The translations under genes were made by a program, and so were the position numbers. The notes under the pieces are model-generated. The model had not been told where the DNA came from and did not search any database. It saw only the letters and a program-made list of their open reading frames with translations. From IMG/VR virus record IMGVR_UViG_3300020445_000940, positions 1-57,246 of that record: 57,246 bases of DNA. The stretch is one strand, 5' to 3'. The stretch comes from a virus. Shown piece by piece: positions 3,085 through 44,257 of the stretch (positions within the stretch are counted from its first letter, which is position 1; each line of letters starts with the position of its first letter).

Positions 3085-3301
3085 ATCTATCTCCTTCTTT
3101 AAGCAAGATTAATATTGAGTCCCAAAAAGGCAACTCATAAAGTTGGGGTTTTTTTGTTAGAGATAAACCCCATAACTCTATTTATTTATGACACTCTAGG
3201 GTAGGTATACTATATTGTGTCATTGAGAAGTCTTATGAACGGCTTCTCATCTATATTTATATATTATTACACTACCATAGAGTCAATAATTTGTCAAGTC
3301 C
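3085..3301 (-). promoter_or_regulatory. hsp20 upstream region: promoter plus structured leader
   Basis: Near the top, TTGACA (3297-3292) and TTGACT (3286-3281) can pair with TAGTGT and TATATA (3263-3258), each at 17 bp. A T4-type late motif TATAAATA (3261-3254) overlaps the second -10. Below this the transcript contains inverted repeats TGAGAAG/CTTCTCA, ATGACAC/GTGTCAT, and CAACT/AGTTG flanked by A and T runs, the last resembling an imperfect terminator. No credible ORF is present. Whether the leader regulates hsp20 is inference. Confidence 0.6.
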
Positions 3302-4255
3302 CTAAGCAACTTCTGCCATTTTTAATGCAGTATCAAGTGCTTTTAACTTAACTCTTCTGTTCCTACCATACCAAGCAGAAGTAAGTCTTCCGTCAGTAGT
3401 AGAACCTTGTTGGTGGTCAGTATTAAAAGTTACTGCATTAAACGCCTGCCACCAAGTACCTTTTGCATACTGATTACCAGGCTGAGTTTCAATAACTTCA
3501 AACGCTTTCCTACCATTAACTGTTGTCGGAACAGATGGGTTTTTAATATCATCATCTTTGATATTAGATGGATATACTGTGTTAAGATACTCAACAAGTC
3601 TTTCAGTAGTATATCTTTTACTACCAAGAAACTCTGCCATAGTCTTGTAATTATCCATTTTTTCTTTTGCAATACCAAGTTGTTCTTTAACCATTTCTGG
3701 ATTAAACTCTCTTCTATGATTTACTTTTACCATAGAATCACTATCGGTACTCAAAGATAAAGTTAAAGTGTTATTACAAACAACCCTAATAGGTGTCATT
3801 CTAATATCAATAGACTTACCAAACTGATGTGGATTTGAAAACAACATATAGTTTTCTACCTCATCACCTTTGAATAATTCAAAACTTTGTTTAACTTTTG
3901 CAAGAGCCCATACCATTTTACCGTCCATTAAAGAACCAGCAGTATGCATCTCTAAATCACCAGCTTCAACATACTCAGAAAAGAAATCAAACGCTTCTTT
4001 GTTTTGAACTGGATTCCAGTTTTGTCCTACACTTGGTGCAAGAACTTTGTTATCAGAACTTCTAACTAATGCAAATGAACCAGTCTTTTGTTGTCCAGAT
4101 GGGTTATCTACATAAGTAGGTAGTTTTTCTACATACCAATCTAAACCAGATTTTTTTAACATCTCGTCAGTTGATAAATCGTGTGGAACTTTTGTTCCTA
4201 ATCCGTGCCAAGGCACTTCACCAGCATAAGCCATAGTTTCAACTAATGCACTCAT
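3302..4255 (-). CDS. DUF932 family phage/plasmid-like protein
   Basis: The protein (317 residues) opens with a hallmark of the DUF932 / TIGR03299 family: E-x-M-A-Y-x-G-E-V-PWHGLG at residues 6-20. It continues with family-typical stretches such as LVRSSDNKVLAPSVG and IRMTPIRVVCNNTLTLSL. The C-terminal part holds WWQAFNAVTFNTDH and R-x-x-SAWYGRN. The biochemical role of the family is unknown; members are common in phages, plasmids and mobile regions. It stands alone, with its own consensus promoter upstream and a 217-bp gap to hsp20. Confidence 0.87.
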   Translation of the reverse strand: MSALVETMAYAGEVPWHGLGTKVPHDLSTDEMLKKSGLDWYVEKLPTYVDNPSGQQKTGSFALVRSSDNKVLAPSVGQNWNPVQNKEAFDFFSEYVEAGDLEMHTAGSLMDGKMVWALAKVKQSFELFKGDEVENYMLFSNPHQFGKSIDIRMTPIRVVCNNTLTLSLSTDSDSMVKVNHRREFNPEMVKEQLGIAKEKMDNYKTMAEFLGSKRYTTERLVEYLNTVYPSNIKDDDIKNPSVPTTVNGRKAFEVIETQPGNQYAKGTWWQAFNAVTFNTDHQQGSTTDGRLTSAWYGRNRRVKLKALDTALKMAEVA

Positions 4256-4433: not shown

Positions 4434-4502
4434 ATGAATTTATTTACAATATCAATGTTAATTTTTACTTTTTTAATGAGTATAGGAATGGGAATCAACT
4501 AA
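4434..4502 (+). CDS. Possible 22-residue hydrophobic peptide, plus strand
   Basis: ATG at 4434 is preceded by an AGGGGA ribosome site 6-8 bp upstream. It opens a 22-codon frame with an almost entirely hydrophobic product (starts MNLFTISM, ends GMGIN) that could form one short membrane helix. The TAA at 4500-4502 lies in the A-run of a strong terminator. Upstream AT-rich DNA contains TTGTGA and TATACA at 17-bp spacing, a weak promoter candidate. This is one of only two plus-strand gene candidates in the window. It may instead be a small RNA. Conservation is unknown. Confidence 0.4.
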   Translation: MNLFTISMLIFTFLMSIGMGIN

Positions 4503-4531
4503 AAAAAAAGGGAACGCTAAGTTCCCTTTTT
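4501..4531. terminator. Bidirectional rho-independent terminator
   Basis: The stem GGGAAC/GTTCCC (4510-4515 and 4521-4526) with a 5-nt loop is flanked by nine A and five T on the plus strand. It can therefore work in both directions. It would end the long minus-strand run that finishes with the exported-protein genes and also the short plus-strand transcript through 4434-4502. Confidence 0.88.
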
Positions 4532-4532
4532 C

Positions 4533-4586
4533 TTATACTATATAAGGTAATAATAAATACCCTACAATACCTATTGCAATCCACAT
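4533..4586 (-). CDS. Possible 17-residue hydrophobic peptide, minus strand
   Basis: The frame starts with ATG at 4586 after GGAG at a suitable distance. It encodes a 17-residue peptide (MWIAIGIVGY then LLLPYIV) and stops inside the tail of the terminator at 4501-4531. Like its plus-strand counterpart it is hydrophobic and abuts the same terminator. It would be the last cistron of the exported-protein run. Chance is possible at this length; only conservation can tell. Confidence 0.3.
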   Translation of the reverse strand: MWIAIGIVGYLLLPYIV

Positions 4587-4590
4587 ATTT

Positions 4591-4911
4591 TTACTCCATA
4601 TGTACGACTACCCATTGTCCAAACTCTCTGCAAGCCAGTCCTACACGATTAGTTCCAGTAATAAACTTTTTACATCTTTTACTTTCTATATCGTGTATTT
4701 CTTCAGTTCGGTCAATATGTTGACCGACTTGACCACCAATGAATAATCCTAGTAGTCCACTAGCCGCAAGTGTATATGGGTCAGAAACATTTAATTGTTT
4801 CGCACCCACTACTCCTAAAAATGCACCAACACCCTCAAATAATCCCTTTTTAGGTTGACTAAATGCAGTTGTTGATGCAAACAGAAAAATTAAAACAACA
4901 AGCAATCTCAT
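4591..4911 (-). CDS. Small exported protein with glycine-zipper-like segment
   Basis: The start at 4911 was chosen because it forms a TAATG junction with the preceding gene and opens a clean signal peptide (MRLLVVLIFLFASTTAFS). A frame extended upstream by five codons would bury the signal. The mature part of the 106-residue product has two small-residue-rich hydrophobic stretches, FEGVGAFLGVVGA and ASGLLGLFIGGQVGQH, resembling glycine-zipper outer-membrane motifs. A cysteine-containing C-terminal domain (two Cys) follows. It is the last full gene of a four-gene exported cassette. The function is unknown; an envelope location is inferred. Confidence 0.72.
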   Translation of the reverse strand: MRLLVVLIFLFASTTAFSQPKKGLFEGVGAFLGVVGAKQLNVSDPYTLAASGLLGLFIGGQVGQHIDRTEEIHDIESKRCKKFITGTNRVGLACREFGQWVVVHME

Positions 4912-5618
4912 TACTCTGTCATCCATTTATCAGGCCCATATGAGGGAACTGTTTTGATGTGTCTATTATTATCACCCAAGTCATCCAATTCTTTTTCTAT
5001 ATTAGATAAAGATTGTACTTCGTCTCGGTTTAAAGATTTGTCAACACTTCTTTCTAATTCTTTAAATGCATTATTAGAACGAAGTTTTGCATATACAGCT
5101 CTGTCTTTTCTCATTCTATTCATAAGTATTTTTATAGCTTCTTCATCAGAATATTCTAATAATACAAATGAACGATATTGAGTTCCAGCAGGATATACTT
5201 CCATATCTTTAATTTTATAACCAGCAACATCTACAGATGCAATTACATTTTTAGATACTCTTTCTAATTCATTTAATACTTGAGAATCTAAATCCGTAGT
5301 ACCAGTTTTTGCAATGAATTGTTTGGTCATACTATTAAGTTTACCATTTATTCTATCTGCAAGAACTGTTTTAGCGTTCATAGTTGCAATATCAACAGAT
5401 AATTGTAAATCTGGTGCGATTGCAGTTCCAGATGAGTAAATCATTTTTTCATCTTCTGGAAGTTCTTTGAACCAATTTGGTATAACACTAGATGTACTTT
5501 CAACTTTCTGTATTTGTTGTTGAATCTCTGGTGTTTCAACCAAAGGGTCAACATCTACTTTTGTTGCACAAGAACCTAGTGCGATGAGAGGCAAGATGCT
5601 AAATAACTTCTTCTTCAT
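4911..5618 (-). CDS. LPP20-family-like lipoprotein
   Basis: The N-terminus is a lipoprotein signal peptide with a lipobox ending at Cys17 (ALGSC). Next comes PNWFKELPEDEKMIYSSGTA, matching the LPP20 family pattern in which a P-x-W-F segment and a G-T/S-A element precede a helix rich in Ala that contains A-T-M-N-A-K. The C-terminal third is a charged, probably coiled-coil region. LPP20-type lipoproteins include Vibrio and Campylobacter FlgP, associated with the outer membrane and flagellar base. The SD (AGGAGGTGA) lies inside the end of the preceding gene, which it overlaps by 20 nt. Confidence 0.75.
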   Translation of the reverse strand: MKKKLFSILPLIALGSCATKVDVDPLVETPEIQQQIQKVESTSSVIPNWFKELPEDEKMIYSSGTAIAPDLQLSVDIATMNAKTVLADRINGKLNSMTKQFIAKTGTTDLDSQVLNELERVSKNVIASVDVAGYKIKDMEVYPAGTQYRSFVLLEYSDEEAIKILMNRMRKDRAVYAKLRSNNAFKELERSVDKSLNRDEVQSLSNIEKELDDLGDNNRHIKTVPSYGPDKWMTE

Positions 5619-5793
5619 AATTAATCACCTCCTCTTCATCAGAATTTTGTAGTTTCTCTTTTCCCCAACCAGATACATCTTTTATATCTTGGCCGAATCC
5701 AGAAACAGTACCACAAGACTGTGTAAATATAAGTAGAGCAAAAACTCCACATAAAATTAAAACATTGGTTAAAATGCCTTTTCTTTTATTCAT
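5599..5793 (-). CDS. Entericidin-like small lipoprotein
   Basis: This 64-residue protein has a hydrophobic signal segment and a putative lipobox at Cys27 (TQSC, with an unusual Thr at -3). It continues CGTVSGFGQDIKDVSGWGKE, close to the entericidin pattern C-N-T-x-x-G-x-G-x-D-I/V. Entericidins are small toxin/antidote lipoproteins of Gram-negative bacteria. The C-terminus is acidic and contains a repeat of EEEVINY/EEEVI, whose codons also supply the extended SD for the next gene. Its own SD is AGGTGA. A role in host envelope stress or lysis is inference. Confidence 0.62.
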   Translation of the reverse strand: MNKRKGILTNVLILCGVFALLIFTQSCGTVSGFGQDIKDVSGWGKEKLQNSDEEEVINYEEEVI

Positions 5794-5796
5794 ATA

Positions 5797-6249
5797 TCAC
5801 CTATTACATTGTTTAAGTTTAACTTCTTGTAATCCCAACCCTGGCATTACAACATTAAGTGTTTCTACTGTACACTCAATTCTTGGTTTTGTCAAGGCCT
5901 TTACTTGACAATTTAAATTTTTTGTTGATTCTAATGTTTCTGGAACAAACTCTTGTAATAATCTTTCTTTTGCACGATTAACTGCATTTTGACAAGCTTC
6001 GTTTTCTGACATATCTGGTGTGAATATATAATCTTCTGAAGTGATATACCATTTACCTTGTACTTTTGCTTTAATTATTACTTTACATTTCTTTGTTTCT
6101 CTAAAATACTCTGTTACTGTTTTATCTTTAACTTCTAATGATTCTATTGTTCCTTGAATTGTAGATGTAGTTTGATTATCATATTCACAAGGGTTTGTTG
6201 CGAAAACAAATGATGGTAGTAAACATAATACACTAATCTTTTTAATCAT
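5797..6249 (-). CDS. Secreted six-cysteine protein of unknown function
   Basis: A signal peptide (MIKKISVLCLLPSFVFA) ends near residue 17. The mature 133-residue part contains six cysteines, enough for three disulfide bonds, which fits a periplasmic location. The segment EACQNAVNRAKERLLQEFVPET resembles the Cys/Ala-rich helix found in several LPP20/FlgT-like exported proteins, but the match is weak. It overlaps the methyltransferase by 8 nt and is followed by the entericidin-like and LPP20-like lipoproteins, so the set is probably made together. I do not recognise the family. Confidence 0.68.
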   Translation of the reverse strand: MIKKISVLCLLPSFVFATNPCEYDNQTTSTIQGTIESLEVKDKTVTEYFRETKKCKVIIKAKVQGKWYITSEDYIFTPDMSENEACQNAVNRAKERLLQEFVPETLESTKNLNCQVKALTKPRIECTVETLNVVMPGLGLQEVKLKQCNR

Positions 6250-7651
6250 AAAAATCCTCTAATGTTGATTTAGTTTCTACTGATTCTATTCTTGCAGTTG
6301 CAATATTAAAATATTGTTCCTCTTTTTCTATACCTACAAAATCAAATTTCTCTTCTTTTGCAGCCATTCCAGTTGAACCACTACCCATAAATGGGTCTAA
6401 TATTGTGCCACCTTTTGGTGTAATCAATCTACATAAGTATTTCATTAACTTGATAGGTTTTACTGTTGGGTGTATATTTTTCTTCTCTGTTACAAATCTA
6501 TCAGTAACATCATTATCTATTTTAGAATCTTTCATATCATCTGCATTTCTACGACCAGGCATACTTGATGCTTTCTTTGTTGGTAGATTATCTAATCCTT
6601 GATTTCTTTCTGCCTTTGATGTTTTTGCACAATAGAAAAACCTTGCAGCTGAACCTTCATCACCAATAGTTTCAACATCTCTTGGATACATTTTACCATA
6701 TACATTATACTGTCCACCCTCTATATGTTGTTTCATTTTTCCACTTTTAGTGTGTGGAAATATATCTTTTACAGCATCACTTCCATCGTGCATAACATTT
6801 GATGGAAATCTACCTCTAGGGTCTGCATCTGCATATAAAGTACCCTCTGCTCTAAAACTAGAATTACCATTATTAAATACAGAATCATCAGTTCTTGTTT
6901 TACGAACAACCTTTTTTCTTTTTACATTTTCTGTTTGACCAAAACTTAATTTATCAATACCCATATTTTCTTTTGATTGGCGGCCTTGGTCACGAAAGTC
7001 TGGATTAGAATCTGGATATTTTGCATCATTTCCCTCAACTCTACATTCATCTATATTAATACCACCAGTTCTATGTTTTAATACATTATCTACAACTGAT
7101 TTTTCTGATAAAGGTTTTCTTGCAAGAACTAAAGGTTCGTGTGCAGGCTTCAACGCAGTTCCCCAACCTTCCCATTCTGAATTACCTTCTGTAATTGGAA
7201 TATCTATTCTAGAATACTCATTTGTATCTGTTGCTGTACCAACATAGTTTCCACTTCTTATATCTTGTTTACTCTTGAGCGTACCGACCACTTCTCTTTC
7301 ATTACCTAGTTTCTTATCTAATGACTTACCAATATTCATACTCTTTGGAAAACCAGAACCATATAACCACATTACTTGGTCACGAATCTCAAAACCAGCA
7401 TCTTCTATTGCAACTGCCATTCTATGATATGTTCTACTTCCAGAAAATGCAAGTAGATGTCCACCAGGCTTTAATACCTTAAAACATAGTTCCCAAGTTT
7501 CTTTTTGAAATGCAATACCAGTAGAATCCCAGCTTCTTCCCATAAAACCTAATTCATAGGGTGGGTCTGTAACGATAGAATCAACGAAGACTTCATCTTC
7601 TGCCATCATCTTTAGAACATTTAAACAATCACCGTTGTGTAATTTCATCAT
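6242..7651 (-). CDS. Beta-class DNA methyltransferase (N6-adenine or N4-cytosine)
   Basis: The catalytic motif IV DPPY (residues 29-32) comes first and the SAM-binding motif I, DPFMGSGST (about 419-427), comes last. This order defines beta-class amino-methyltransferases of the N6_N4_Mtase family. Between them are about 300 residues, longer than needed for the core, including an extended low-similarity segment that would hold target recognition. No restriction enzyme partner is seen, so this is an orphan enzyme that may protect phage DNA or alter promoters. It overlaps gp46 by 4 nt. The recognition site cannot be predicted. Confidence 0.92.
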   Translation of the reverse strand: MMKLHNGDCLNVLKMMAEDEVFVDSIVTDPPYELGFMGRSWDSTGIAFQKETWELCFKVLKPGGHLLAFSGSRTYHRMAVAIEDAGFEIRDQVMWLYGSGFPKSMNIGKSLDKKLGNEREVVGTLKSKQDIRSGNYVGTATDTNEYSRIDIPITEGNSEWEGWGTALKPAHEPLVLARKPLSEKSVVDNVLKHRTGGINIDECRVEGNDAKYPDSNPDFRDQGRQSKENMGIDKLSFGQTENVKRKKVVRKTRTDDSVFNNGNSSFRAEGTLYADADPRGRFPSNVMHDGSDAVKDIFPHTKSGKMKQHIEGGQYNVYGKMYPRDVETIGDEGSAARFFYCAKTSKAERNQGLDNLPTKKASSMPGRRNADDMKDSKIDNDVTDRFVTEKKNIHPTVKPIKLMKYLCRLITPKGGTILDPFMGSGSTGMAAKEEKFDFVGIEKEEQYFNIATARIESVETKSTLEDFYD

Positions 7652-11501: not shown

Positions 11502-11988
11502 CTTTACAAATACCCATAATCAAAGATAAAAACATTTTGCCTGGTGGTGCAATAATTCTAATACCAGAATTGGGTGGCATTACAATAAAACTTCCCTCTT
11601 TGAGTGGTAGTTTAAAAATGCCTTTCTCACCAGTTTGAATGTCTAAGTCTATACAATCTGGAGAACAACAAGGTACATATAACATACGATAATGTGATGG
11701 AACATCTGTAGCCTTGTTTAAATCTGCTTGTACAACATAATATTTACCAAATCCAACATCTTCTAATAATTTCATTAGTTTATCAAATAGTGGTTGCATC
11801 CAATCGTGTTCAGTTACATCTGCAAATCTTTTGTCTTCTGTAAAAACATCTTTTGCAACATCAAGAAAATTCTCGTGAAAAGATAATGCTTGATTATGCA
11901 AAAGAGTTTTATCATTTTTATTACGATTTTCACCTAACCAAATAGAACCCTTTGGGTGTATATCTTTTATTTCATTAAATTTAATCAT
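11491..11988 (-). CDS. Unknown protein, possibly a degenerate cupin/oxygenase
   Basis: I do not recognise this 165-residue protein. Its C-terminal stretch GSFIVMPPNSGIRIIAPPGKMFLSLIMG has the rhythm of the oxygenase pattern 'FPS..xH.V.P...R.SL..G', but the metal-binding His is absent. The middle contains two closely spaced Cys (VPCCSPDC). It lies between PstS and the oxygenase pair and overlaps both (8 and 11 nt), so it belongs to the same transcript. A degenerate jelly-roll fold is a guess. Confidence 0.65.
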   Translation of the reverse strand: MIKFNEIKDIHPKGSIWLGENRNKNDKTLLHNQALSFHENFLDVAKDVFTEDKRFADVTEHDWMQPLFDKLMKLLEDVGFGKYYVVQADLNKATDVPSHYRMLYVPCCSPDCIDLDIQTGEKGIFKLPLKEGSFIVMPPNSGIRIIAPPGKMFLSLIMGICKDED

Positions 11989-12952
11989 TAAGTGGTATGA
12001 GTCCTTTACCTATCAAATATCCGTCATCACCTATTGCTTTATCAGATGTAAATTCTTTTATATATTCTCTAATGCCTGGAATTACAGTTGCGTGTGCATC
12101 TTTTACATAAAACCATAATGACCTAGAAATAGGATATGTACCATTACTAATTAATTCAAATTCTGGACTAATACCATTAATTGTTGCAGGCTTTACTTTA
12201 TCTCTATTTTCTTGTAGAAAAGAATAACCAAATATACCTAATGAATCTGGATTTGTTATTAATTTTTCAATTATTAGATTGTCGTTCTCACCAGCTTCTA
12301 TATATACACCATCTGTTCTTATTGCACGACATTCAGATTTATATAAATCTTTATTTTTTTGTTTAAGTTTTTTTCTCTCTGGATAAGTTTTACAACCTCT
12401 TTCAATACCAAGTTCATTAAGTGCATCTCTAGTACCAGATGTTGGAGGTGGGCCGTAAACGGCAATAGGTAAGTCTGGATATGTTGGATTTATTTCTATC
12501 CATTTTTTGTATGGATTAGGTTTGACAGTTTTACCATCAATGTCTGCTGGTACATCTTTTGCAAGTGCAAGATATAAATCCCTTATTGTTAAATGAAAGT
12601 TAGCACCTTTTTTTGAGTTTGCAATCGCAAGACCATCATATCCTATTTTAACTTCTGTAATATCTTTTATACCATTTTTTTTACAATTATCTATTTCGGT
12701 TTGTTTTATTCTTCTTGATGTATTTGTTATGTCTGGGTGTTGTGTTCCCATACCAGCACAAAAGAGTTTTAATCCACCACCAGAACCAGTTGACTCAACT
12801 ACTGGTGTTTTAAATTTACTAGTCTTACCAAATCGTTCTGCAACAGTTGTTGCAAATGGATATACAGTAGAACTACCTACTATTTTAATTTGGTCTCGTG
12901 CAAACAAAGTTGTTGCAAATAATAATGTAAATACAAATAAGAAGTTTCTCAT
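11981..12952 (-). CDS. pstS: Phosphate ABC transporter substrate-binding protein PstS
   Basis: ATG at 12952 was chosen because it opens a standard signal peptide (MRNFLFVFTLLFATTLFA) two bases after the peroxiredoxin stop. A longer frame would begin inside that gene. The mature protein shows PstS motifs: KIVGSSTVYPFA, E-STGSGGGLKLFC, the R-R-I-K region and GPPPTSGTRDA, which form the phosphate site. About 323 residues is family length. PstS is a known auxiliary metabolic gene in marine phages and would boost phosphate uptake in the infected cell. No pho box is visible because it is internal to a long run of genes. Confidence 0.93.
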   Translation of the reverse strand: MRNFLFVFTLLFATTLFARDQIKIVGSSTVYPFATTVAERFGKTSKFKTPVVESTGSGGGLKLFCAGMGTQHPDITNTSRRIKQTEIDNCKKNGIKDITEVKIGYDGLAIANSKKGANFHLTIRDLYLALAKDVPADIDGKTVKPNPYKKWIEINPTYPDLPIAVYGPPPTSGTRDALNELGIERGCKTYPERKKLKQKNKDLYKSECRAIRTDGVYIEAGENDNLIIEKLITNPDSLGIFGYSFLQENRDKVKPATINGISPEFELISNGTYPISRSLWFYVKDAHATVIPGIREYIKEFTSDKAIGDDGYLIGKGLIPLND

Positions 12953-12953
12953 T

Positions 12954-13490
12954 TTACTTTCCTTTATTACTTTTAATATACTGAAGTATATTTTGTGGTG
13001 AGGTTTCACCATATGGGTCATCATCTGCATTATCTTTTTTGTTTGGTTCAACAAAAAGATGTTCAATGTTTTTATCATTTATTATAGCCGCATATCTCCA
13101 CGACCTATCACCAAAACCTAAATTTTCTTTCTTAACTAACATACCCATTCCAGAAGTAAAATCTCCATTACCATCTGGTATAATTTTAACATTTTCTAAA
13201 CTATGTTGTTCTGCCCATTTATTCATTACAAATGCATCATTACAAGACATACAATAAATGTCATCTATTCCTTCTTCTTTAAACTGTGAATACATAGCTT
13301 CAAAGTCTGGTAATTGATATGTTGAACAAGTTGGTGTAAATGCACCAGGCAAAGAAAATAAAATAACTTTCTTACCACTAAAATAATCATCAGTAGATTT
13401 ATCTTCCCACTTATATGGGTTTGGACAATCCGTGCAATCATTATCTTTTACTCTTGTTTTAAAAACAACATTTGGAACTATATCAACCAT
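12954..13490 (-). CDS. Peroxiredoxin (Prx5-like)
   Basis: The peroxidatic site is the motif PGAFTPTCS near residues 49-57, the signature of Prx5/AhpE-type peroxiredoxins. A later stretch, GFGDRSWRYAAIINDKNIEHLFVEP, matches the Prx5 C-terminal region. The end carries DPYGETSPQNILQYI, a common ending in bacterial forms. It reduces peroxides with a thiol donor; the glutaredoxin encoded upstream at 15206-15424 could be one. The 178-residue gene lies between gp47 and pstS as cargo. An N-terminal CTDC pair near residues 19-22 is additional and may matter for redox. Confidence 0.9.
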   Translation of the reverse strand: MVDIVPNVVFKTRVKDNDCTDCPNPYKWEDKSTDDYFSGKKVILFSLPGAFTPTCSTYQLPDFEAMYSQFKEEGIDDIYCMSCNDAFVMNKWAEQHSLENVKIIPDGNGDFTSGMGMLVKKENLGFGDRSWRYAAIINDKNIEHLFVEPNKKDNADDDPYGETSPQNILQYIKSNKGK

Positions 13491-13498
13491 TTTTTCTC

Positions 13499-14566
13499 CT
13501 ATATTTCCATATTACTAGCCTCAACATACAATCCTTTTAACATTGTTTTGAGTCTATTTTTATCTAAGTTATTCACATCTATTTCTTCAACATAAGAATC
13601 CAATAAGGTTATTGTATCTTGTGCGTTTTCTATAATTTCATTTTTTACATTCTCAGCTTTCAAGTCTGAAAAGTCCTCTATAATTTTAACATCGTGTGCT
13701 TTTGATTCTGTTAAAACTTGGTCTACAAACTTATCAAACATATATAAGTCTTTTTTATTTACAACTATTAGTTTGACATATTTGTCCTCTAAATCTTTTA
13801 TTTGATTGAAATTATACTCTTGACTATTAGAATCATCATAATAAACTTTTTTAAATATTGTATATGGGTTTATAATTCTTTCTAATTCTCTTGTTTCTGT
13901 ATCAAATATATGAAATCCTTTTGGACATTTATCATCATTCCAATATATTTGATAAGGTGTTCCTAAATAAAATATGTGTCCGTCATCTGACTTTTTATGA
14001 AAGTGTCCAGACATTACCATATCAAATCTATTAAACTCTGATTTATCCATACCAGTTTCACTTGGAAAACCGTGATGCATTTCAAATCCTTTTATTTCAA
14101 GGTGACCCATTGCAACCGTAGCTTTTGTCTTTTGCATCTTCTCAAGTGTACTGTTGTAATTTGTTGAATTTATCCAAGGCAGAAAACATATAGGTATATC
14201 AAACTCAACAGTTTCAGCTTCTCTGTATATCTTTATGTTCTCATAACGATTACCAATTAACTCATCAAGTGAATTTACTTCATTAGTATTCTTAAAGTAT
14301 GTATCGTGATTGCCCACTATCATATGCACATTTATGTCATTTGTCACAAAACTTTCACAAAACTTTTCTCTGAAGTCTCTTGCAGTTTTGTATGACACAA
14401 ACTTTCTTCTATCCATAACATCACCTAGATGAATACAAGTGTCTATATTATGTTGTTTAAGATAAGGAAAGAATATATCCTCATAGAATTTATAAAAATA
14501 TGTGTTGAAATGGTCGTGGTCATTCCGAGCACCGAAATGGGTGTCGGTTACTAAAGCTATCTTCAT
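13499..14566 (-). CDS. 47: Recombination endonuclease subunit gp47 (SbcD/Mre11-like)
   Basis: This metallophosphoesterase is the nuclease partner of gp46. All motifs are present: DTHFGAR (8-14), HLGDVMDRR (46-54), GNHDTY (85-90), MGHLEIKG and SGHFHKKS with the metal-binding histidines. The 355 residues are near T4 gp47 (339). It is followed by peroxiredoxin after an 8-bp gap and preceded by the thermonuclease-like gene by 3 bp. The separation from gp46 by cargo genes is unlike T4, where only small genes lie between them. Confidence 0.96.
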   Translation of the reverse strand: MKIALVTDTHFGARNDHDHFNTYFYKFYEDIFFPYLKQHNIDTCIHLGDVMDRRKFVSYKTARDFREKFCESFVTNDINVHMIVGNHDTYFKNTNEVNSLDELIGNRYENIKIYREAETVEFDIPICFLPWINSTNYNSTLEKMQKTKATVAMGHLEIKGFEMHHGFPSETGMDKSEFNRFDMVMSGHFHKKSDDGHIFYLGTPYQIYWNDDKCPKGFHIFDTETRELERIINPYTIFKKVYYDDSNSQEYNFNQIKDLEDKYVKLIVVNKKDLYMFDKFVDQVLTESKAHDVKIIEDFSDLKAENVKNEIIENAQDTITLLDSYVEEIDVNNLDKNRLKTMLKGLYVEASNMEI

Positions 14567-14569
14567 AAT

Positions 14570-15001
14570 CTAATCTATTATGCCTTGTGATTTTAAATAT
14601 TGTCTATTTTGTAAGTGATGTTCTTGAATCTGTTGTTTGGATTGTCCATTATATTCAACACCTATATTGTGTTTTATCATATACTCAACGATACCCATTT
14701 CTCTATCTTCTTGTCCATCATATATTTTAAAGTCACCTAAGACCCTACCAAACTTACCAGACTTATCTTTCTTTGTCATTAAGACTTGACTTGAACCCAC
14801 TGGCATAAATCCTTCCACACACTTTTTTGCGTACAGACCAGCTTTCTTTTCTTCCAAGTCTCTTGTTCTTGATTCTGGTGTGTCAATTCCATAGAGGCGT
14901 ATTCGTTCATTATGAATCCAAGTACCGAAACCCAAATCAATATTGACATCAATAGTGTCGCCGTCCACAATCTTGACAATTTCACATTTATATTCATACA
15001 T
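14570..15001 (-). CDS. Thermonuclease-like nuclease (SNase domain)
   Basis: ATG at 15001 forms a TAATG junction with the preceding gene and has GGAAAG upstream, so it is preferred to a frame starting 27 nt earlier. The SNase fold residues are readable: VDGDT (12-16), then RIRLYGIDTPE (33-43) with Arg35, Asp40 and Glu43 in the positions of the staphylococcal nuclease site, and a later GRVLGD. The protein has 143 residues and no signal peptide, so it acts in the cytoplasm, perhaps in degrading host DNA. Confidence 0.9.
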   Translation of the reverse strand: MYEYKCEIVKIVDGDTIDVNIDLGFGTWIHNERIRLYGIDTPESRTRDLEEKKAGLYAKKCVEGFMPVGSSQVLMTKKDKSGKFGRVLGDFKIYDGQEDREMGIVEYMIKHNIGVEYNGQSKQQIQEHHLQNRQYLKSQGIID

Positions 15002-15186
15002 TATTTCTTTCCATTTATATGTTTCCAAAGTTGTTCAACAAGGTCATCTTTTAGATATCTTCTATCTAATTCAATACCGTGTTTACGACCCAAAGTTTCC
15101 AATTCTCTTTTAGTCATTGTTAAAAGTCTTGACTTTTTAATTGGTTTTGGTTTTGGTTTAAATAAATTTGTTATAAAATTAATCAT
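15001..15186 (-). CDS. Small SAP-like helical protein
   Basis: The 61-residue protein has a basic N-terminus (FKPKPKPIKKSRLL). A helix-extended loop-helix pattern follows: LLTMTKRELETLGRKHGIELDRRYLKDDLVEQLW, reminiscent of SAP or Rho-N-like DNA-binding motifs. It has a strong AAAGGAG ribosome site. It lies between glutaredoxin and the thermonuclease-like gene. Similar short proteins occur in other T4-like marine phages. DNA or RNA binding is inferred from charge and pattern only. Confidence 0.65.
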   Translation of the reverse strand: MINFITNLFKPKPKPIKKSRLLTMTKRELETLGRKHGIELDRRYLKDDLVEQLWKHINGKK

Positions 15187-29490: not shown

Positions 29491-31105
29491 CAACTGGCGT
29501 CCACCTTTCACCATATTCATCTATTTGTGGTATAGGGTCATCAATACCATTATCTAAGAATCCAAATGGTGCAAGGTCTTGTTCTAATTGATTTTGACTT
29601 TCTGCAAACAATTTAGCTCTAACATCACTATCAGTAAGTTCTTTAAAATAAGTTTGACCAGACAACCACGCAAATAATACACAACACATCATTAAATCAT
29701 CGTGGTGTCCTTCTTCTGCCTGATATGACTGTCCGTGAAGAACAAATGAAGACATCTCTGCAACTATATCATAATCTTCTAATATAATCTTATTAGACTC
29801 TACCATTGTTTTTAGATTAGAACAACCAATTTTTTTGACTGCCTTAGTTGTTCTCACACCAAGTTGTGATTTACCACCACTAAAACCACCACCAACTATC
29901 TGACCAGCACGACCTCTCATACTTGCCATTATAAGATTATCATATTCTAAATCAAATTGTAATGCGTTTGCAACTTGGTCACCAATGTCATTTACTTCTA
30001 TTAATACAAATGCTTGATTGTATGCAAGTGCAACATCTTTGATAATGTTTGGAAATAACATAGGCTTTATTTCATTATTTTTATATTTGCCTACTAATCT
30101 ATATGGTAATTGAGATACATCCATAACAGTAAACGCAGAAGAATCGCCTTGTATACCTCTAGCTACATCTGCAACAATAACATATGTGTGTTCTTTTTTA
30201 GGTTTTTCATATACATCAAGACCAGCATTAGATGTTAAAGGTGTTCTTAAAGGAATATTTTTTATTATAGATGCATTTATTAGTGTATTTGTAGAACCTA
30301 AAAACTCACACTCAAATTCTTTTTGAAATTGTGATTCACTTGTATTTGCAATCGTTTCTTTCTTCCACTTTTCATCTCTGCCTGGAACTTCAGACCAATG
30401 AACTTCTATCGGTACATAAGTATTCTTTTTTGTTTCTGCATCTGTCCATAATTTATAATACATATTCATACCATTTGGTGTTGATACAATAATAACTTTT
30501 GTAGATTGACCAGATGAAATAGTAGGATAAACTGAACTAAAGAACTCTTCTGCAATATTTGTAGGTACAAACGCAAACTCATCTAAAAATATCATATTGT
30601 ATGAACCACCACGAACTGCACTTGATGATGTTGAGGCTGCAACTATGCGTGAACCATTTTCTAATTCTAAACTACCTTTATTCCACGATAGTATTCCTTG
30701 TTGCAACCATTTAGGTAAATGTTCATATGCAAGTTGTAATCTGGATAAAATATCTCTTGCAGTCGCAGCTTTGTTTGCAAGTATTGCCACATTCATATTT
30801 TGATTGAACAAAACATAATGTAATATATAAGAAACCATTGTGGTTGTTTTACCAGATTGTCTAGGTAGTTTACAGATTGTAAAACGATTGTTGTGAAATG
30901 TACCAACCATTTCTTTTTGAAAAGGATACATATCAAATGGTATCAGACCTTTGTCTAATGATACAATTTTAATATATGTTTCTATAAAATATTGTGGGTC
31001 GTTCATACATTTTTGAAACTCAAGAATATTTTCTTTTGTAAACTCTTGACTTACAAATGCTTTCTTTAAATTAGGATTTCCAAGATATTGATGTTCTATG
31101 CCCAT
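29465..31105 (-). CDS. 17: Terminase large subunit gp17
   Basis: This is the packaging motor ATPase and headful nuclease. The ATPase domain shows Walker A LPRQSGKTT (80-88) and Walker B MIFLDE (171-176). The RNase H-like nuclease domain starts at VIVADVARGIQGDSSAFTVMD, whose first Asp is a metal ligand. The 546 residues compare with 610 in T4. Its ATG lies inside the last codons of a glycine-rich gene (10-nt overlap), so its N-terminal MGI is shared with the start of those paralogues. gp16 is 5.5 kb away. Confidence 0.96.
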   Translation of the reverse strand: MGIEHQYLGNPNLKKAFVSQEFTKENILEFQKCMNDPQYFIETYIKIVSLDKGLIPFDMYPFQKEMVGTFHNNRFTICKLPRQSGKTTTMVSYILHYVLFNQNMNVAILANKAATARDILSRLQLAYEHLPKWLQQGILSWNKGSLELENGSRIVAASTSSSAVRGGSYNMIFLDEFAFVPTNIAEEFFSSVYPTISSGQSTKVIIVSTPNGMNMYYKLWTDAETKKNTYVPIEVHWSEVPGRDEKWKKETIANTSESQFQKEFECEFLGSTNTLINASIIKNIPLRTPLTSNAGLDVYEKPKKEHTYVIVADVARGIQGDSSAFTVMDVSQLPYRLVGKYKNNEIKPMLFPNIIKDVALAYNQAFVLIEVNDIGDQVANALQFDLEYDNLIMASMRGRAGQIVGGGFSGGKSQLGVRTTKAVKKIGCSNLKTMVESNKIILEDYDIVAEMSSFVLHGQSYQAEEGHHDDLMMCCVLFAWLSGQTYFKELTDSDVRAKLFAESQNQLEQDLAPFGFLDNGIDDPIPQIDEYGERWTPVVRKYDTNW

Positions 31106-32904
31106 TGAAGTGAAACACCGTGAATAGTATTAATATGAGATAATCCAGCACCTACTAATTTCCAACGAACTTGAACTTGAGGACTTGCAGTACCAGTCAA
31201 AGGTGTACTACCAGTGAATATTTTAGTTCCACTTGAACCAGTCACATATCCATTATCAGTCAAAGTTATCGCATTAAAAGTTGTATTATCTCTAGTTGCA
31301 GATGCACTTAATTGTGAATTTAATGTACTATTAATTTCTGCAAAAACAACTATTCTTGCTTTGGTCGGAGTAGAACTTGCAGTAAAAGTATCTGATATTA
31401 ATGTTGTAGAAGTATCTGTTAATGTAGTTGATAATTCTTTAACAACAACAATACCTGGCCCCCCATCACCACCTAAACCACCACCAGCAGGAGTTGGATT
31501 GCCTGGATTTAATGCACCAGCACCACCACCGCCTCTATTTACACCGCCAGGTAAGCCTGGATACCAAGTAGGATTTCCATAATAGTTTGGATTTCTAGTA
31601 CCACCACCAAAAGGAACAGCAGCAGTGCCACCGTCTGCTGTTTGACCACCACCTAGACCACCACCACCGAAACCTACGGAAGTCGTACCATCTAATATAT
31701 TATAGTTTAGTCCAACACCACCATCACCACCAACATCTGTTCCAGTATCTTCACCAGCACCACCTATTCCACCACCACCAGCACAAGCACCTTCACCACC
31801 AGCATTATCATAACCGCCTGGAGTTAATACTCCACCATTATTTCCAAAACTGCCTGGTGAGTTTTCTGGTAAAACTGCTGGGGTCAATGGAATTGGATGA
31901 TTAGTAGTTTGAGTGCCAGGTGCAAAACTTGAGCCAGGTGCATTATTTGAACCACCAGCTGCACCACCACAACCACCTCCGTGTAAACCAGCTTCCGTTG
32001 TGCCTGGAGCATATGGTGCAGTTCCACCAGTTTGATAACCACCACCAGCACCTCCACCCTCTCCTATGAGAGGCCCAAAGGAAGAATCTGTTCCAGTTTG
32101 TCCAGGCCCATAATATGTATGAGTCATTGGATAATTATATTGTGGATGTTCATAACCACCATACTCACCAGTTCCAACAGATGGGTCTGGTCTTGCAGTA
32201 GGAGTGTAAGGATTTGAACCAGGCGCTGGAGGTAAATATCCACCACCTTCACCACCAACACCAACTACCACTGCAACTGAACCACCAGGCGTTACTGGAT
32301 AATTTGGATAATATATTGCACCACCAGCTCCAGCACCACCACCGTGAAGATTATTATAACCACCAGTACCACCACCTCCTCCACCACCAATTACAAATAC
32401 ATTAACATTAGAAACACCACTTTCAACATTAAATGTTGCAGGGCCTGTGGAAGTGAATGTAGTTATATCTTGAGTTGGTGGACTTGGACTAGTACCACTA
32501 CCACCAGAGTAATAATCTGATGCACTATCATAAGCCATACCTACATTTTCTGATGTATCTACACCAGATTCATCATTGAATTCATCAACTACACCATCTT
32601 TTAAATTAAACAATGTTAATCCTTCTGCAACTGCCATCTTGAAACCTAATAAACCAATATTAAAAGTATTTGTATCTGATTGTGCTACACTTGCAGCTTG
32701 AAATCCACCAGCGCCATTTAATAAATCTGACGAACTGCCAGGCAAACTTAATTTTGAAAATGCAATACTTGCTTGTGGTGATACATCTGCGTTTGTGATA
32801 GTATTATTCAATATAACATCTGAGTTGACACTATTGTCTGCAATTTTATCACTATCTAATGCACTATCACCAATAAGATTTTTATCTACTTTTGTTATTC
32901 CCAT
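31096..32904 (-). CDS. Glycine-rich tail fibre/adhesin paralogue 1
   Basis: The 602 residues fall into three parts. The first (1-145) has a DKNL/DSDKI-type repeat, VSPQASIAFSKLSLPG, and FNIGLLGFKMAVAEGLTLFNLKDGVVDEFNDESGVDT. The second (170-490) is extremely Gly-rich with VNVFVIGGGGGGG and IYYPNYPVTPGGSV, like the Gly_rich_2 domain and polyglycine-helix adhesins. The third is a compact C-terminal domain ending GVSLQWA. All parts recur in four other genes here. It is probably a host-recognition tail protein. Its end overlaps the gp17 start by 10 nt. Confidence 0.78.
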   Translation of the reverse strand: MGITKVDKNLIGDSALDSDKIADNSVNSDVILNNTITNADVSPQASIAFSKLSLPGSSSDLLNGAGGFQAASVAQSDTNTFNIGLLGFKMAVAEGLTLFNLKDGVVDEFNDESGVDTSENVGMAYDSASDYYSGGSGTSPSPPTQDITTFTSTGPATFNVESGVSNVNVFVIGGGGGGGTGGYNNLHGGGAGAGGAIYYPNYPVTPGGSVAVVVGVGGEGGGYLPPAPGSNPYTPTARPDPSVGTGEYGGYEHPQYNYPMTHTYYGPGQTGTDSSFGPLIGEGGGAGGGYQTGGTAPYAPGTTEAGLHGGGCGGAAGGSNNAPGSSFAPGTQTTNHPIPLTPAVLPENSPGSFGNNGGVLTPGGYDNAGGEGACAGGGGIGGAGEDTGTDVGGDGGVGLNYNILDGTTSVGFGGGGLGGGQTADGGTAAVPFGGGTRNPNYYGNPTWYPGLPGGVNRGGGGAGALNPGNPTPAGGGLGGDGGPGIVVVKELSTTLTDTSTTLISDTFTASSTPTKARIVVFAEINSTLNSQLSASATRDNTTFNAITLTDNGYVTGSSGTKIFTGSTPLTGTASPQVQVRWKLVGAGLSHINTIHGVSLQWA

Positions 32905-34685
32905 TGTAATGATACTCCGTGAATTTTATTTGCACCACTTAAAGATGAACCTACTATTTTCCATCTAAGTTGTACTTGTGGACTTGCTGAACCAGTCAGA
33001 GGTGTACTACCAGAATATATTTTAATACCACTTGAACCAGTTTGGTATCCTTCATCAGTCAAAGTTATTGCGTTAAATGTTGTATTATCTCTTGTTGCAC
33101 TTACAGCAAAATCAGAAGTTCCGTCTGGTAATTCTCCAAATAAAACTATTCTTGCAGTTGAAGGTGTTGAACTTGCAGTGAAAGTATCTGAAACTAAAGT
33201 CATACTTGTATTAGAAACATTTCGTTTACTTTCTGCAACTATTATAATACCAGGCCCACCATCTCCACCATATCCACCACCAGCAGGAGAACTAGGATTA
33301 ATATTTCTTGCACCAGCACCACCACCCCCACTATTTACAGCACCAGGCAAGCCAGGAAACCAATTTGGTTGTTGATGATTAGTTTGATTTGTATCTCCAC
33401 CACCGAAAGGTACTGAAGTGCCTTGTGGAAAACTTTCGTGGTCAACACCAGCACCACCACCAGCATAACCTACTGATGTAGAACCATCTGCAATATTATA
33501 ATTTAATCCTATACCACCTTCTCCACCTACTGCTCCTTCAGCATCTCCACCAACACCACCAGCACCACCGCCACCACCAGTTGCAGTGTCACTAGGAACA
33601 TCTGGTTGTATTAAACCACCATTATTACCAAAACTTCCAGGCGAGTTTACTGGTAAAACTGATGGAGTCAATGGTATTGGATGATTTGCAACTTGTTTAC
33701 CCTCCCCAGTATTCCCATAATAACTTGTAGGGCCTCCACCACCAGCACCACCACTTCCACCTTCGTGAAAAACTTCACTAGTTACACCCATATATGGATG
33801 TGAACCACTAGTTAACCAACCACCACCAGCACCTCCACCTTCACCTATAAGAGGCCCAAATGCAGAATCAGTGCCAGTTTGTCCAGGCGAGTAATATGTG
33901 TGTGACATTGGATAATTATATTGTGGATGTTCAAAACCACCAAATTCACCAGTTCCATTACGACTATCTGGTCTTGCAGTTGGTGTATAAGGTGCAGAAC
34001 CAGGCGAAGGAGGATTATACCCAGCACCTTCACCACCAGCACCTACTGATACTGGAATACTTCCACCAGGCGTTACTGGATAATCTGGGTAATAAATTAA
34101 ACCACCAGCCCCAGCACCACCACCATCAGTACCATTATAACCAGCAGCACCACCACCTCCACCGCCCCCAACGACTAATACATTAACTGTTGTAATGCCA
34201 GATTCAACAGAATATGTTCCAGAACCAAGTGAAGTAATAGATGTTCTACCTATTTCTGGAGAAGGTATAGGAATATTTGTTCCTTGATTCGTATAAAAGT
34301 CTGAACTAGAGTCGTAAGATGCACCAGATATTTCGGCAGTATCTACACCAGATTCATCATTAAATTCATCCACTACACCATCTTTTAAATTAAATATTGT
34401 GAGCCCATCATTAACTGCCATCTTAAAACCTAAGACACCAATATTAAATGCATTTTCATCAATACCAGTTGTATCAATAGCACCAAATGAACCATCACCA
34501 CGAACAAATTGTGATGGTGGGCCAGGTAATGCTAACTTACTTGCTGGAATGCTTGCACTAGGAGAGATATCTTCGTTTTTTACTTCTGCACCTATCTTAG
34601 AGCTATCAACTGCACCAGTGTTTATTTCACCACTTCCAATAGAGTCATTACTTAAATTCTGATTTCCTAACTTTGTTATGCCCAT
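32895..34685 (-). CDS. Glycine-rich tail fibre/adhesin paralogue 2
   Basis: The 596-residue protein has the same three-part plan as its neighbour and begins MGITKLGNQNLS. The flanks are nearly the same (FNIGVLGFKMAVNDGLTIFNLKDGVVDEFNDESG; C-terminal SDTFTASSTPSTARIV and TRDNTTFNAITLTDEGY). The Gly-rich centre differs in loop sequences, as expected for variable receptor contacts. The terminal codons (LQWE stop) overlap the start of the following paralogue by 10 nt. Confidence 0.78.
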   Translation of the reverse strand: MGITKLGNQNLSNDSIGSGEINTGAVDSSKIGAEVKNEDISPSASIPASKLALPGPPSQFVRGDGSFGAIDTTGIDENAFNIGVLGFKMAVNDGLTIFNLKDGVVDEFNDESGVDTAEISGASYDSSSDFYTNQGTNIPIPSPEIGRTSITSLGSGTYSVESGITTVNVLVVGGGGGGGAAGYNGTDGGGAGAGGLIYYPDYPVTPGGSIPVSVGAGGEGAGYNPPSPGSAPYTPTARPDSRNGTGEFGGFEHPQYNYPMSHTYYSPGQTGTDSAFGPLIGEGGGAGGGWLTSGSHPYMGVTSEVFHEGGSGGAGGGGPTSYYGNTGEGKQVANHPIPLTPSVLPVNSPGSFGNNGGLIQPDVPSDTATGGGGGAGGVGGDAEGAVGGEGGIGLNYNIADGSTSVGYAGGGAGVDHESFPQGTSVPFGGGDTNQTNHQQPNWFPGLPGAVNSGGGGAGARNINPSSPAGGGYGGDGGPGIIIVAESKRNVSNTSMTLVSDTFTASSTPSTARIVLFGELPDGTSDFAVSATRDNTTFNAITLTDEGYQTGSSGIKIYSGSTPLTGSASPQVQLRWKIVGSSLSGANKIHGVSLQWE

Positions 34686-36574
34686 TGTAGTGCAACTCCG
34701 TGAATTTTATTTGTACCAGTAAGTGATGACCCAACAACTTTCCATCTCATCTGAACTTGTGGACTAGCACTTCCAGTTAAAGGAGTTGAACCAGTATATA
34801 TTTTAATACCACTTGAACCACTTACATACCCAGTATCAGTTAATGATACTGAATTGTATGTTGTATTATCTCTTGTTACTGATATTGCAACATCAGTATT
34901 TAAATCATCTGCTATTTCTGCAAACAACACAACTCTTGAAGTAGATGGTGTCGCACTCGCAGTAAATGTATCTGATACTAAAGTCATACTTGTTGCACTT
35001 GAACCAGCATCAAAAACTAAAAGAATACCACCATCACCACCAGCATTTGTAGCACCACTAGTTGCACCTTCACCTCTAGCACCATCAGCAAAAAGTGCTT
35101 GTCTTGGTGCTGGTAATGCTGTGTAATATGGTGCTTCGTCAAATACACTTAATGGAGTAGGATTTGATGCACTACCAACTGCTGCTTCAGCTTCTATTGT
35201 TGGACTTGCAACATATGTAGGATTTGAATATCCAGCACCACCACCAGTACCACCAGTATAACCGCCTGGGTCAGATGTACCACCACCTCCGTGATATCCA
35301 GAACCACCACCACCATAGTGATAAGGTGGATAACCCATACCACCACCTTGAAAATGTATTGCATCTGGGTGTGGAGACTCTTGTGTCCACTCTCCTGGCC
35401 CAAATCCAGAACCTTCACCAAAAGGATATGCCGCCATATGTCCGTTTGCTTCTTGGTCTGCACCCCCACCAGATGCATTAGTACCACCAGAACTAGCAGT
35501 AGGTACACTAAAACCACCAGAACCATTAGTTCCAGCAGTAAATCCACCACCACCACCTTGTGCTTGTGGAGCACCATTTGAATTCTCACCAGCACCACCA
35601 GCACCTACAATTAAAACTGATTCACTTGCATTGGTTGGAGAAACTGTATCTGCAAAACCTGGCCCCTCATCTGGATAATTATTAGGTGAGCCTGGGGTTT
35701 GCCAATTTCCAGTTTCACCATATGTACCACCCTCTATAATTGTAACTTCACCATCAAAAATTCCAGTAAAACCACCACCTCCACCAATAGCACCATAAGC
35801 ACCACCACCATAACCACCAGTAGCACCTATATCTCCACTTGGATATTGGGGGGTACTGAATTGTGGGCCAACACCACCTTCACCTACAACATAATCCCAA
35901 GTAGCACCAGCGATTGATGGACTTGCTATTGTAGCTTGTACACTACCACCAGAACCTCCAGAACCTTGAGCATTGTTTCCAGCACCACCACCAACCATAG
36001 TTGCTTCTATTGAAGTTGTTAATGTGGGAAATGTAATACTACCTTGAGTTCCAAATGCACCATATGTTGCTTCTTGAGAAGTGACTGTTACTAAAGGTGC
36101 GTGTTCTGGATTTTCAAAAGTGACTGCATCTACACCTAAATGCACTGCAACACCAGGCGTTGGTGATAAATTTTGATAAAAATCTGATGCTGATTCGTAA
36201 GATGCATTTGAGTTTTCGCCAGTATCAATTCCACCCTCACTATTAAATTCGTCTACGACACCATCAACAAGATTAAAAATAGTCAGTCCTTCATTGACTG
36301 CCATTTTGAATCCTAACACACCAACATTAAATGCATTAGTACCTACTGCACTTAAATCAACAGCACCAAAACTTCCATCACCTTTTAAAAAATCTGATGA
36401 ACTTCCAGGCAAACTAAATTTATTTAATGCGATTGCAGCTGATGGAGAAATATCACTATTGGTTATTGTTGCATTTGATATATCAGCAGTTGAAACTGAA
36501 TTAGGTTGAATCTGTCCAGAACTAACTTTACCAGATTCTTCAATCATATTGCTGTTTACTTTAGTATCAGACAT
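34676..36574 (-). CDS. Glycine-rich tail fibre/adhesin paralogue 3
   Basis: The protein (632 residues) keeps the common N-terminus (FNVGVLGFKMAVNEGLTIFNLVDGVVDEFNSEGG) and C-terminus (SDTFTASATPSTSRVV, LQWA). The centre (about 150-490) is much diverged and lacks the YYPNYPVTPGG segment, with Gly, Ser, Thr and Tyr instead. It may represent a different receptor class. It starts 6 bp after the gp16 stop and overlaps paralogue 2 by 10 nt. Confidence 0.78.
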   Translation of the reverse strand: MSDTKVNSNMIEESGKVSSGQIQPNSVSTADISNATITNSDISPSAAIALNKFSLPGSSSDFLKGDGSFGAVDLSAVGTNAFNVGVLGFKMAVNEGLTIFNLVDGVVDEFNSEGGIDTGENSNASYESASDFYQNLSPTPGVAVHLGVDAVTFENPEHAPLVTVTSQEATYGAFGTQGSITFPTLTTSIEATMVGGGAGNNAQGSGGSGGSVQATIASPSIAGATWDYVVGEGGVGPQFSTPQYPSGDIGATGGYGGGAYGAIGGGGGFTGIFDGEVTIIEGGTYGETGNWQTPGSPNNYPDEGPGFADTVSPTNASESVLIVGAGGAGENSNGAPQAQGGGGGFTAGTNGSGGFSVPTASSGGTNASGGGADQEANGHMAAYPFGEGSGFGPGEWTQESPHPDAIHFQGGGMGYPPYHYGGGGSGYHGGGGTSDPGGYTGGTGGGAGYSNPTYVASPTIEAEAAVGSASNPTPLSVFDEAPYYTALPAPRQALFADGARGEGATSGATNAGGDGGILLVFDAGSSATSMTLVSDTFTASATPSTSRVVLFAEIADDLNTDVAISVTRDNTTYNSVSLTDTGYVSGSSGIKIYTGSTPLTGSASPQVQMRWKVVGSSLTGTNKIHGVALQWA

Positions 36575-44254: not shown

Positions 44255-44257
44255 AAT

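Follow-up and report, generated by a model that had tools for sequence, protein, structure and literature searches.

The window analysed here, a viral record of 57,246 nucleotides, contains four adjoining genes for exported proteins, CYS, ENT, LPL and GZ, that recur as a linked block in marine phages and have a rare parallel in SAR11 chromosomes. We read the block as a module, expressed early or midway, that would remodel the host outer membrane and through that remodelling cause superinfection exclusion, and we put the probability of this reading at roughly 0.4. The parts come from known fold families, and databases hold phage proteins named LPP20; their combination as a block is undescribed in the literature that we examined, as far as its accessible text goes, in line with the preliminary description, which knew of no phage system of this composition. 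The word lipoprotein is absent from the accessible text of the pelagiphage genome papers PMC9004378, PMC7029224 and PMC9599517, and the pelagiphage literature including PMC12753301, on two other pelagiphages, describes no system of this make-up in the portions seen.

Layout of the block and its linkage in phages

In the window, T4-like structural genes occupy ~20 to 57 kb, and the part below carries replication genes (named mostly by eye). The four genes of the block all lie on the minus strand and are transcribed in the order CYS, ENT, LPL, GZ. A gap of 3 bases separates CYS from ENT, ENT and LPL overlap by 20 bases and LPL and GZ by 16, and the flanking methyltransferase gene overlaps CYS by 8. 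The features are:

5797..6249, minus strand: CYS, 150 aa, exported, six cysteines in the mature protein, class CYSA
5599..5793, minus strand: ENT, 64 aa, small entericidin-like lipoprotein
4911..5618, minus strand: LPL, 235 aa, lipoprotein with predicted Lpp20 fold
4591..4926, minus strand: GZ, 111 aa, exported glycine-zipper protein, related to 17-kDa surface antigens but shortened
4502..4534, minus strand: terminator-like hairpin 3' of GZ, 14-bp stem, z -4.05 over a 103-nt stretch
6242..7651, minus strand: N6/N4 DNA methyltransferase gene, flank outside the block, overlapping the start of CYS
3302..4255, minus strand: DUF932 gene, flank outside the block; belongs to the next unit and has a promoter-like site ahead of it (4333-4306)

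Export signals were judged by eye and with a lipobox pattern, and on that basis the four-gene exported cassette proposed in the preliminary description stands, with every reading frame in place and touching or overlapping its neighbour. With the hairpin after GZ and a perfect sigma-70-like site (4333-4306, same strand) ahead of the DUF932 gene, the block has the look of the 3' end of a single transcription unit. The hairpin is absent from the output of a consensus terminator scan, and the sigma-70 scan as a whole was at shuffle level (44 sites found, 42.0 expected). Close relatives have the same four genes in the same order, some being missing where contig ends cut the loci. Five pairwise dN/dS comparisons, made by simple counting with synonymous distances partly >1, gave 0.13-0.21 for LPL, 0.18-0.41 for CYS, 0.09-0.35 for GZ and 0.37-0.91 for ENT; three of the four genes are clearly under purifying selection, and ENT is the least constrained.

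The length of the neighbouring methyltransferase varies among close relatives (several have about 394-484 aa), and its identity is 59-77% where that of the adjoining LPL is 94-97%, as if its middle part had been exchanged. Elsewhere in the window, several long glycine-rich proteins with a similar C-terminal stretch (31096-36574 and 42644-45946, by eye) are perhaps products of duplicated tail-fibre genes, and adjacent PstS-like phosphate-binding and peroxiredoxin-like reading frames (11981-13490, by eye) are possible host-derived metabolic genes.

A translated search of 50,697 phage records with the window LPL returned seven, namely four Melnitz strains, HTVC008M twice and Mosig; the same search with CYS returned only the four Melnitz records. 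Versions of the block are thus present in cultured SAR11 and OM43 phages, often with a small membrane protein in addition. A profile search of viral contigs yielded at least 524 LPL relatives, of which 80 were kept. Together with a first scan (21 loci), 12 loci from bacterial assemblies and the isolates, these made up 86 loci with distinct LPL, a set from which identical LPL and the window copy (L022) were removed. Neighbours were sought up to 3 kb from LPL with profiles seeded by genes near LPL. Where more than 900 bases upstream and more than 700 downstream were available (58 loci), a CYS-type gene of class A, B or C was present in 58/58 and GZ in 44/58. The commonest orders were CYSA-ENT-TM-LPL-GZ (17) and CYSB-TM-LPL (12); the window type, CYSA-ENT-LPL-GZ, accounted for 9, LPL-CYSC-GZ with one or two GZ for another 9 (eight SAR11-type loci and L112), CYSA-TM-LPL-GZ for 7 and single cases for four. 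TM, which is missing from the window type, is mostly 44-60 aa long with one apparent helix (by eye).

Because the neighbour profiles had been seeded beside LPL, we also searched for the linkage in reverse, on contigs that were largely common to the first search. Starting from CYSA, LPL lay within 2.5 kb in 55/56 loci (80 loci, 63 distinct, 7 dropped for short downstream DNA), and starting from long GZ it lay upstream in 53/53 (80 loci minus 14 duplicates and 13 that were too short). The genes thus keep their synteny, and the scattered occurrence that would have spoken against the preliminary description was not what we observed. The sole exception among the 56 CYS loci, L211 (1560-1720), retains CYS and a TM-like gene and has no LPL. 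Flanking genes differ by phage group: the window group has methyltransferase and DUF932, HTVC008M and Mosig have glutaredoxin, and Melnitz has a cell-wall hydrolase; an S21-like gene lies downstream in 23/84 loci. Linked genes with flanks that vary by phage group point to a conserved unit set into different places. Another small protein with one apparent membrane helix is encoded directly upstream of the block at 22 loci (e.g. L040 5216-5440, which has no Pfam match), and in those phages the block may extend further.

Families and predicted folds of the four proteins

None of the window's four proteins scored above a curated cut-off in Pfam or NCBIfam, and their PHROGs matches were weak and partial, so their kinship is visible only through relatives and through the LPL model. 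That model was built with AlphaFold2 on 55 aligned sequences (mean pLDDT 68.7, pTM 0.56; core blocks 85-92) and has the Lpp20 fold, as the label LPP20-like had implied. It superimposes on Helicobacter pylori Lpp20 (HP1456, PDB 5ok8) with Z 10.4 and an rmsd of 3.1 over 105 of 114 residues, and Foldseek finds the same structure with E 3.6e-3 and probability 1.00. Lower matches were HP1454 (Z 7.7), Tip-alpha (6.2-6.6), FlgT (3w1e, 4.6) and dodecins (about 4), and Foldseek also gave a weak match to the Campylobacter motor chain 9hmf. At the level of sequence, the window LPL had no match to Pfam LPP20 (PF02169) at E up to 10, 5 of 55 relatives matched it (E up to 1, best 1.4e-5), and the LPL of L104 scored 21.2 bits against a cut-off of 25.9. 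Among the best five viral models for LPL, two are named LPP20 lipoprotein (one from Campylobacter phage CP8) and two lipoprotein. A lipobox-like motif is present in 76 of 79 distinct long LPL; two of the misses retain the cysteine and one has no N-terminus. LPL therefore resembles Lpp20 in lipobox and predicted fold, but differs in the window protein's missing Pfam match, in a longer C-terminal tail and in being part of a multi-gene block. FlgP, which belongs to the same fold class, has a ring-forming insert (PMC12222027, in the part available) at a site where the LPL model has a helix (112-123) and no strands over 105-135 (pLDDT about 60-67 in part); the model thus shows no hairpin of FlgP type.

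Entericidins EcnA and EcnB are a toxin-antidote pair of lipoproteins, entericidin B being bacteriolytic. The window ENT scored 15.9 bits against Entericidin (PF08085), under the curated cut-off of 23.3, and the name entericidin-like given to it holds through its relatives, 17/24 of which match the family (best E 9.1e-5). The lipobox cysteine is invariant in all 24 aligned rows (of 26 candidate rows), and a lipobox-like motif was seen in 28/29 ENT, the one miss still having the cysteine; the conservation on which the original proposal leaned is thus present in both ENT and LPL. The small lipoprotein of Melnitz gave no alignment with ENT. ENT shares with the entericidins its small size, its conserved lipobox cysteine and its relatives' Pfam matches, but it is set apart by its score, by a longer acidic tail and by its single copy (one in the window block, at most one per locus across the listed architectures), with no toxin-antidote pair. 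A spanin pair made of ENT and a one-helix protein was set aside as probably too short.

For GZ, 36 of 44 candidate rows were aligned, of which 27 match 17kDa_Anti_2 (PF16998; best E 1.2e-5) and 17 Gly-zipper_Omp, in keeping with the description of this protein as glycine-zipper-like. Comparison of the short window GZ with long phage GZ gave a profile probability of 98.6. A lipobox was seen in 55/69 relatives; the signal region of the window GZ has no cysteine, so that this protein is not a lipoprotein. Compared with the 17-kDa surface antigens, to which its relatives are tied along with the glycine-zipper proteins, the window GZ is shortened, lacks the lipobox and has no PF16998 match of its own.

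The six cysteines of mature CYS are invariant in 26/26 aligned rows of class CYSA, and two stay invariant once Melnitz, HTVC008M and Mosig are added (7 rows). The CYS model (pLDDT 76.0) has strands and one helix. Its best structural matches were of Rad52 type (Z up to 8.2), little above many common folds, so we claim no fold for CYS, and folds outside the list remain candidates. A single origin of all CYS is unsupported: profile comparison gave probabilities of 46.4 for A-B (over 35 columns around the signal region), 22.3 for B-C and 1.9 for A-C, and these low values led us to treat CYS as three classes in one slot. Searches of PDB sequences with the LPL and CYS profiles gave nothing credible, the best hit (E 0.0067, a Bcl-2-like protein) being taken as chance.

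A parallel operon in SAR11 chromosomes

New in the present analysis is an operon, carried by a few SAR11 chromosomes, that parallels the phage block. On Pelagibacteraceae contigs it runs from a small secreted protein (89-99 aa) through LPL (about 190 aa) and a 114-aa secreted Cys protein to one or two surface-antigen-like lipoproteins. Its surroundings look chromosomal, with phosphatidylserine synthase- and decarboxylase-like genes nearby on one contig and an aminotransferase-like gene on a second (both by eye), and a position beyond 810,000 on a third. In L110 (2444-4498), a Cas4-like PD-(D/E)XK nuclease gene and a gene for a DUF4116 repeat protein adjoin the operon. Profile comparison relates the chromosomal and phage LPL (probability 98.9, E 3e-17), the chromosomal antigen and long phage GZ (93.0), and the chromosomal Cys protein and the CYS of HTVC008M and Mosig (87.8). 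The chromosomal antigen gave a probability of 2.7 with the short window GZ, and class A CYS gave 1.9 with class C. The operon is therefore akin to the phage block in LPL and the long-form antigen, but differs in gene order and in its other small genes, with kinship unsupported for short GZ and class A CYS.

Few genomes carry the operon: with E up to 1e-3 as the limit, 4/101 genomes of the genus and 11/197 of the order match, in sets given without completeness, where a missing match does not prove absence. Strong matches number 2/101 in the genus, the seed genome and L117, which has a glucosaminidase nearby and resembles a phage contig, and 5/197 in the order, three of them already sources of our loci. 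The weaker matches that we viewed have a short LPL (145-148 aa) adjoining a small Cys protein. A resolvase-like gene lies close by in four SAR11 assemblies with short LPL (L124-L127; Pfam was searched for L124 and L127, the other two being judged by eye), which suggests that the short form may be mobile. In the SAR116 assembly L104, LPL adjoins a class B Cys gene. In a tree of LPL, the chromosomal proteins join those of HTVC008M and Mosig with weak support (83/26, long branches being present), and the window, Melnitz, L104 and other sampled viral contigs form a separate clade (96/96). We did not adopt a host origin for the phage block, given this weak grouping and the different gene order.

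Expression time and possible roles

The late-type motif TATAAATA, as in T4, occurs in exact form on the minus strand at 6 sites, 5 in the structural half and one at 3261, and at none between 3262 and 20833. Relaxed to the 7 bases TATAAAT, it adds 4 minus-strand sites at 12343-15019, none nearer the block. The window has no homologue of the tested endolysins from Melnitz, HTVC008M and Mosig, and in a 47-kb relative the 19.5 kb that begin about 5 kb downstream of the block read as replication genes, with no lysis gene recognisable by eye. The replication-gene setting, with neither late motif nor endolysin homologue, favours early or middle expression, and the block is probably expressed at that time, as judged from gene order and one motif; our literature search found no expression data for a block-bearing phage. 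The block had been placed at the end of a DNA-metabolism run, away from lysis and tail genes, which is true of the window phage but not of Melnitz, where it abuts a cell-wall hydrolase gene.

In the reading that we prefer, a T4-like marine phage would express the four genes as one module that remodels the outer membrane of its host. LPL would be anchored under the outer membrane and form a scaffold together with ENT and with CYS in the periplasm, GZ would insert into the membrane or be displayed on it, and the altered surface would stop further phages from adsorbing or injecting. The chromosomal copies in SAR11 may serve, or once have served, a similar protective end. We count in favour of this reading the gene linkage, the export signals and the conserved lipobox; the Lpp20 fold of the LPL model and the surface-antigen family of GZ; the setting described above, with its replication genes and its lack of a late motif and of an endolysin homologue; the differing flanks across phage groups; and the rare chromosomal counterpart, with its short form near resolvase genes. 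A precedent is T5 Llp, a small phage lipoprotein of the outer membrane that acts from the periplasmic face to block its receptor (PMC9586334, as far as the available part describes it); the resemblance is one of description, Llp being one gene as against a block for which exclusion is proposed. Under the outer membrane FlgP assembles into large rings (PMC12222027, again in part), which makes a scaffold of same-fold LPL plausible. The scaffold idea is weakened by the lack of a FlgP hairpin in the model and by H. pylori, in which deletion of Lpp20 leaves the motor unchanged (PMC11756786, in the accessible text). Against exclusion we count the lack of any matched exclusion family: PADLOC returned no match for LPL, CYS and GZ, the three proteins submitted, and the PHROG Cor matched the HTVC008M LPL over the signal region only (E 0.053). 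The strong purifying selection on LPL, which is not arms-race-like, the unsupported homology of CYS classes A, B and C, the hydrolase genes near the block in Melnitz and at other loci, and a timing drawn from gene order and one motif, with the additional TATAAAT sites, count against it as well.

Selection of this kind on LPL, and the wide retention of the block in phages, would also suit a role in envelope reinforcement, in which the outer membrane is kept sound over a long infection, or the supply of lipoprotein and antigen is balanced, and other phages are unaffected. We consider this unlikely, at perhaps half the weight of exclusion. The rings of FlgP speak for it, as does a lipoprotein encoded with flgP that guards the H. 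pylori barrier, but the same source, in its available part, reports motility, motor and bacitracin resistance unchanged after deletion of Lpp20 (PMC11756786), and the rarity of the operon in SAR11 chromosomes argues against a housekeeping need.

Lysis control, to which we assign a similarly low probability, would have the lipoproteins make the outer membrane weaker, or set the moment at which it fails, in step with an endolysin, with ENT acting like entericidin B. It draws on the entericidin likeness of the ENT relatives and on gene neighbourhood. In Melnitz, LPL overlaps the gene of a Hydrolase_2 cell-wall hydrolase (an endolysin PHROG); homologues of this hydrolase lie 2.7-5.7 kb downstream in at least 20 more of the 86 loci, a lower bound, as 4 kb of downstream sequence is present in 60/86; and glucosaminidase-type endolysins lie 3.1 kb (Mosig) and 3.5 kb (HTVC008M) downstream. 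The window-group block, however, sits among replication genes with neither an exact late motif nor a recognised lysis gene (partly by eye), ENT is the least constrained gene, and a parallel operon in SAR11 chromosomes would be odd for a lysis device. CsgG has been proposed to time lysis in these phages (PMC9004378, in the part seen), and the CsgG/CsgF curli pore of pelagimyophages (PMC7029224, PMC9004378, both in part) likewise consists of envelope genes in the same phage groups; unlike those loci, the window record, perhaps a fragment, has no CsgG (PF03783) match. A necessary link to csgGF was set aside: CsgG is present in 3/19 LPL-bearing records, most of them fragments, and is missing from complete Mosig, so the block is separable from phage csgG.

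By far the least probable is flagellar interference, raised in the preliminary description, in which LPL would target the flagellar motor as FlgP and FlgT do: FlgT and the Campylobacter motor chain do match the model, but Lpp20 scores far higher, the model has no FlgP-type hairpin, the genes have no flagellar setting, and SAR11 and OM43, the hosts of the cultured relatives, are not known to have flagella. It is also conceivable, though we hold it improbable, that the proteins form a multi-protein envelope assembly of a new kind that controls crossing of the outer membrane in marine phages and SAR11. Such an assembly would join to an Lpp20-fold scaffold a periplasmic partner rich in disulfides and a surface part with a glycine zipper, and in other phages a one-helix membrane part too.

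SAR11 bacteria are among the most abundant bacterial groups in the ocean, and how phages handle their streamlined envelope is poorly known. Kept by hundreds of viral contigs and with a counterpart on some host chromosomes, the block offers a defined candidate for lysis control, for exclusion or for takeover of the envelope, and its versions in Melnitz, HTVC008M and Mosig sit in cultured phages with known hosts.
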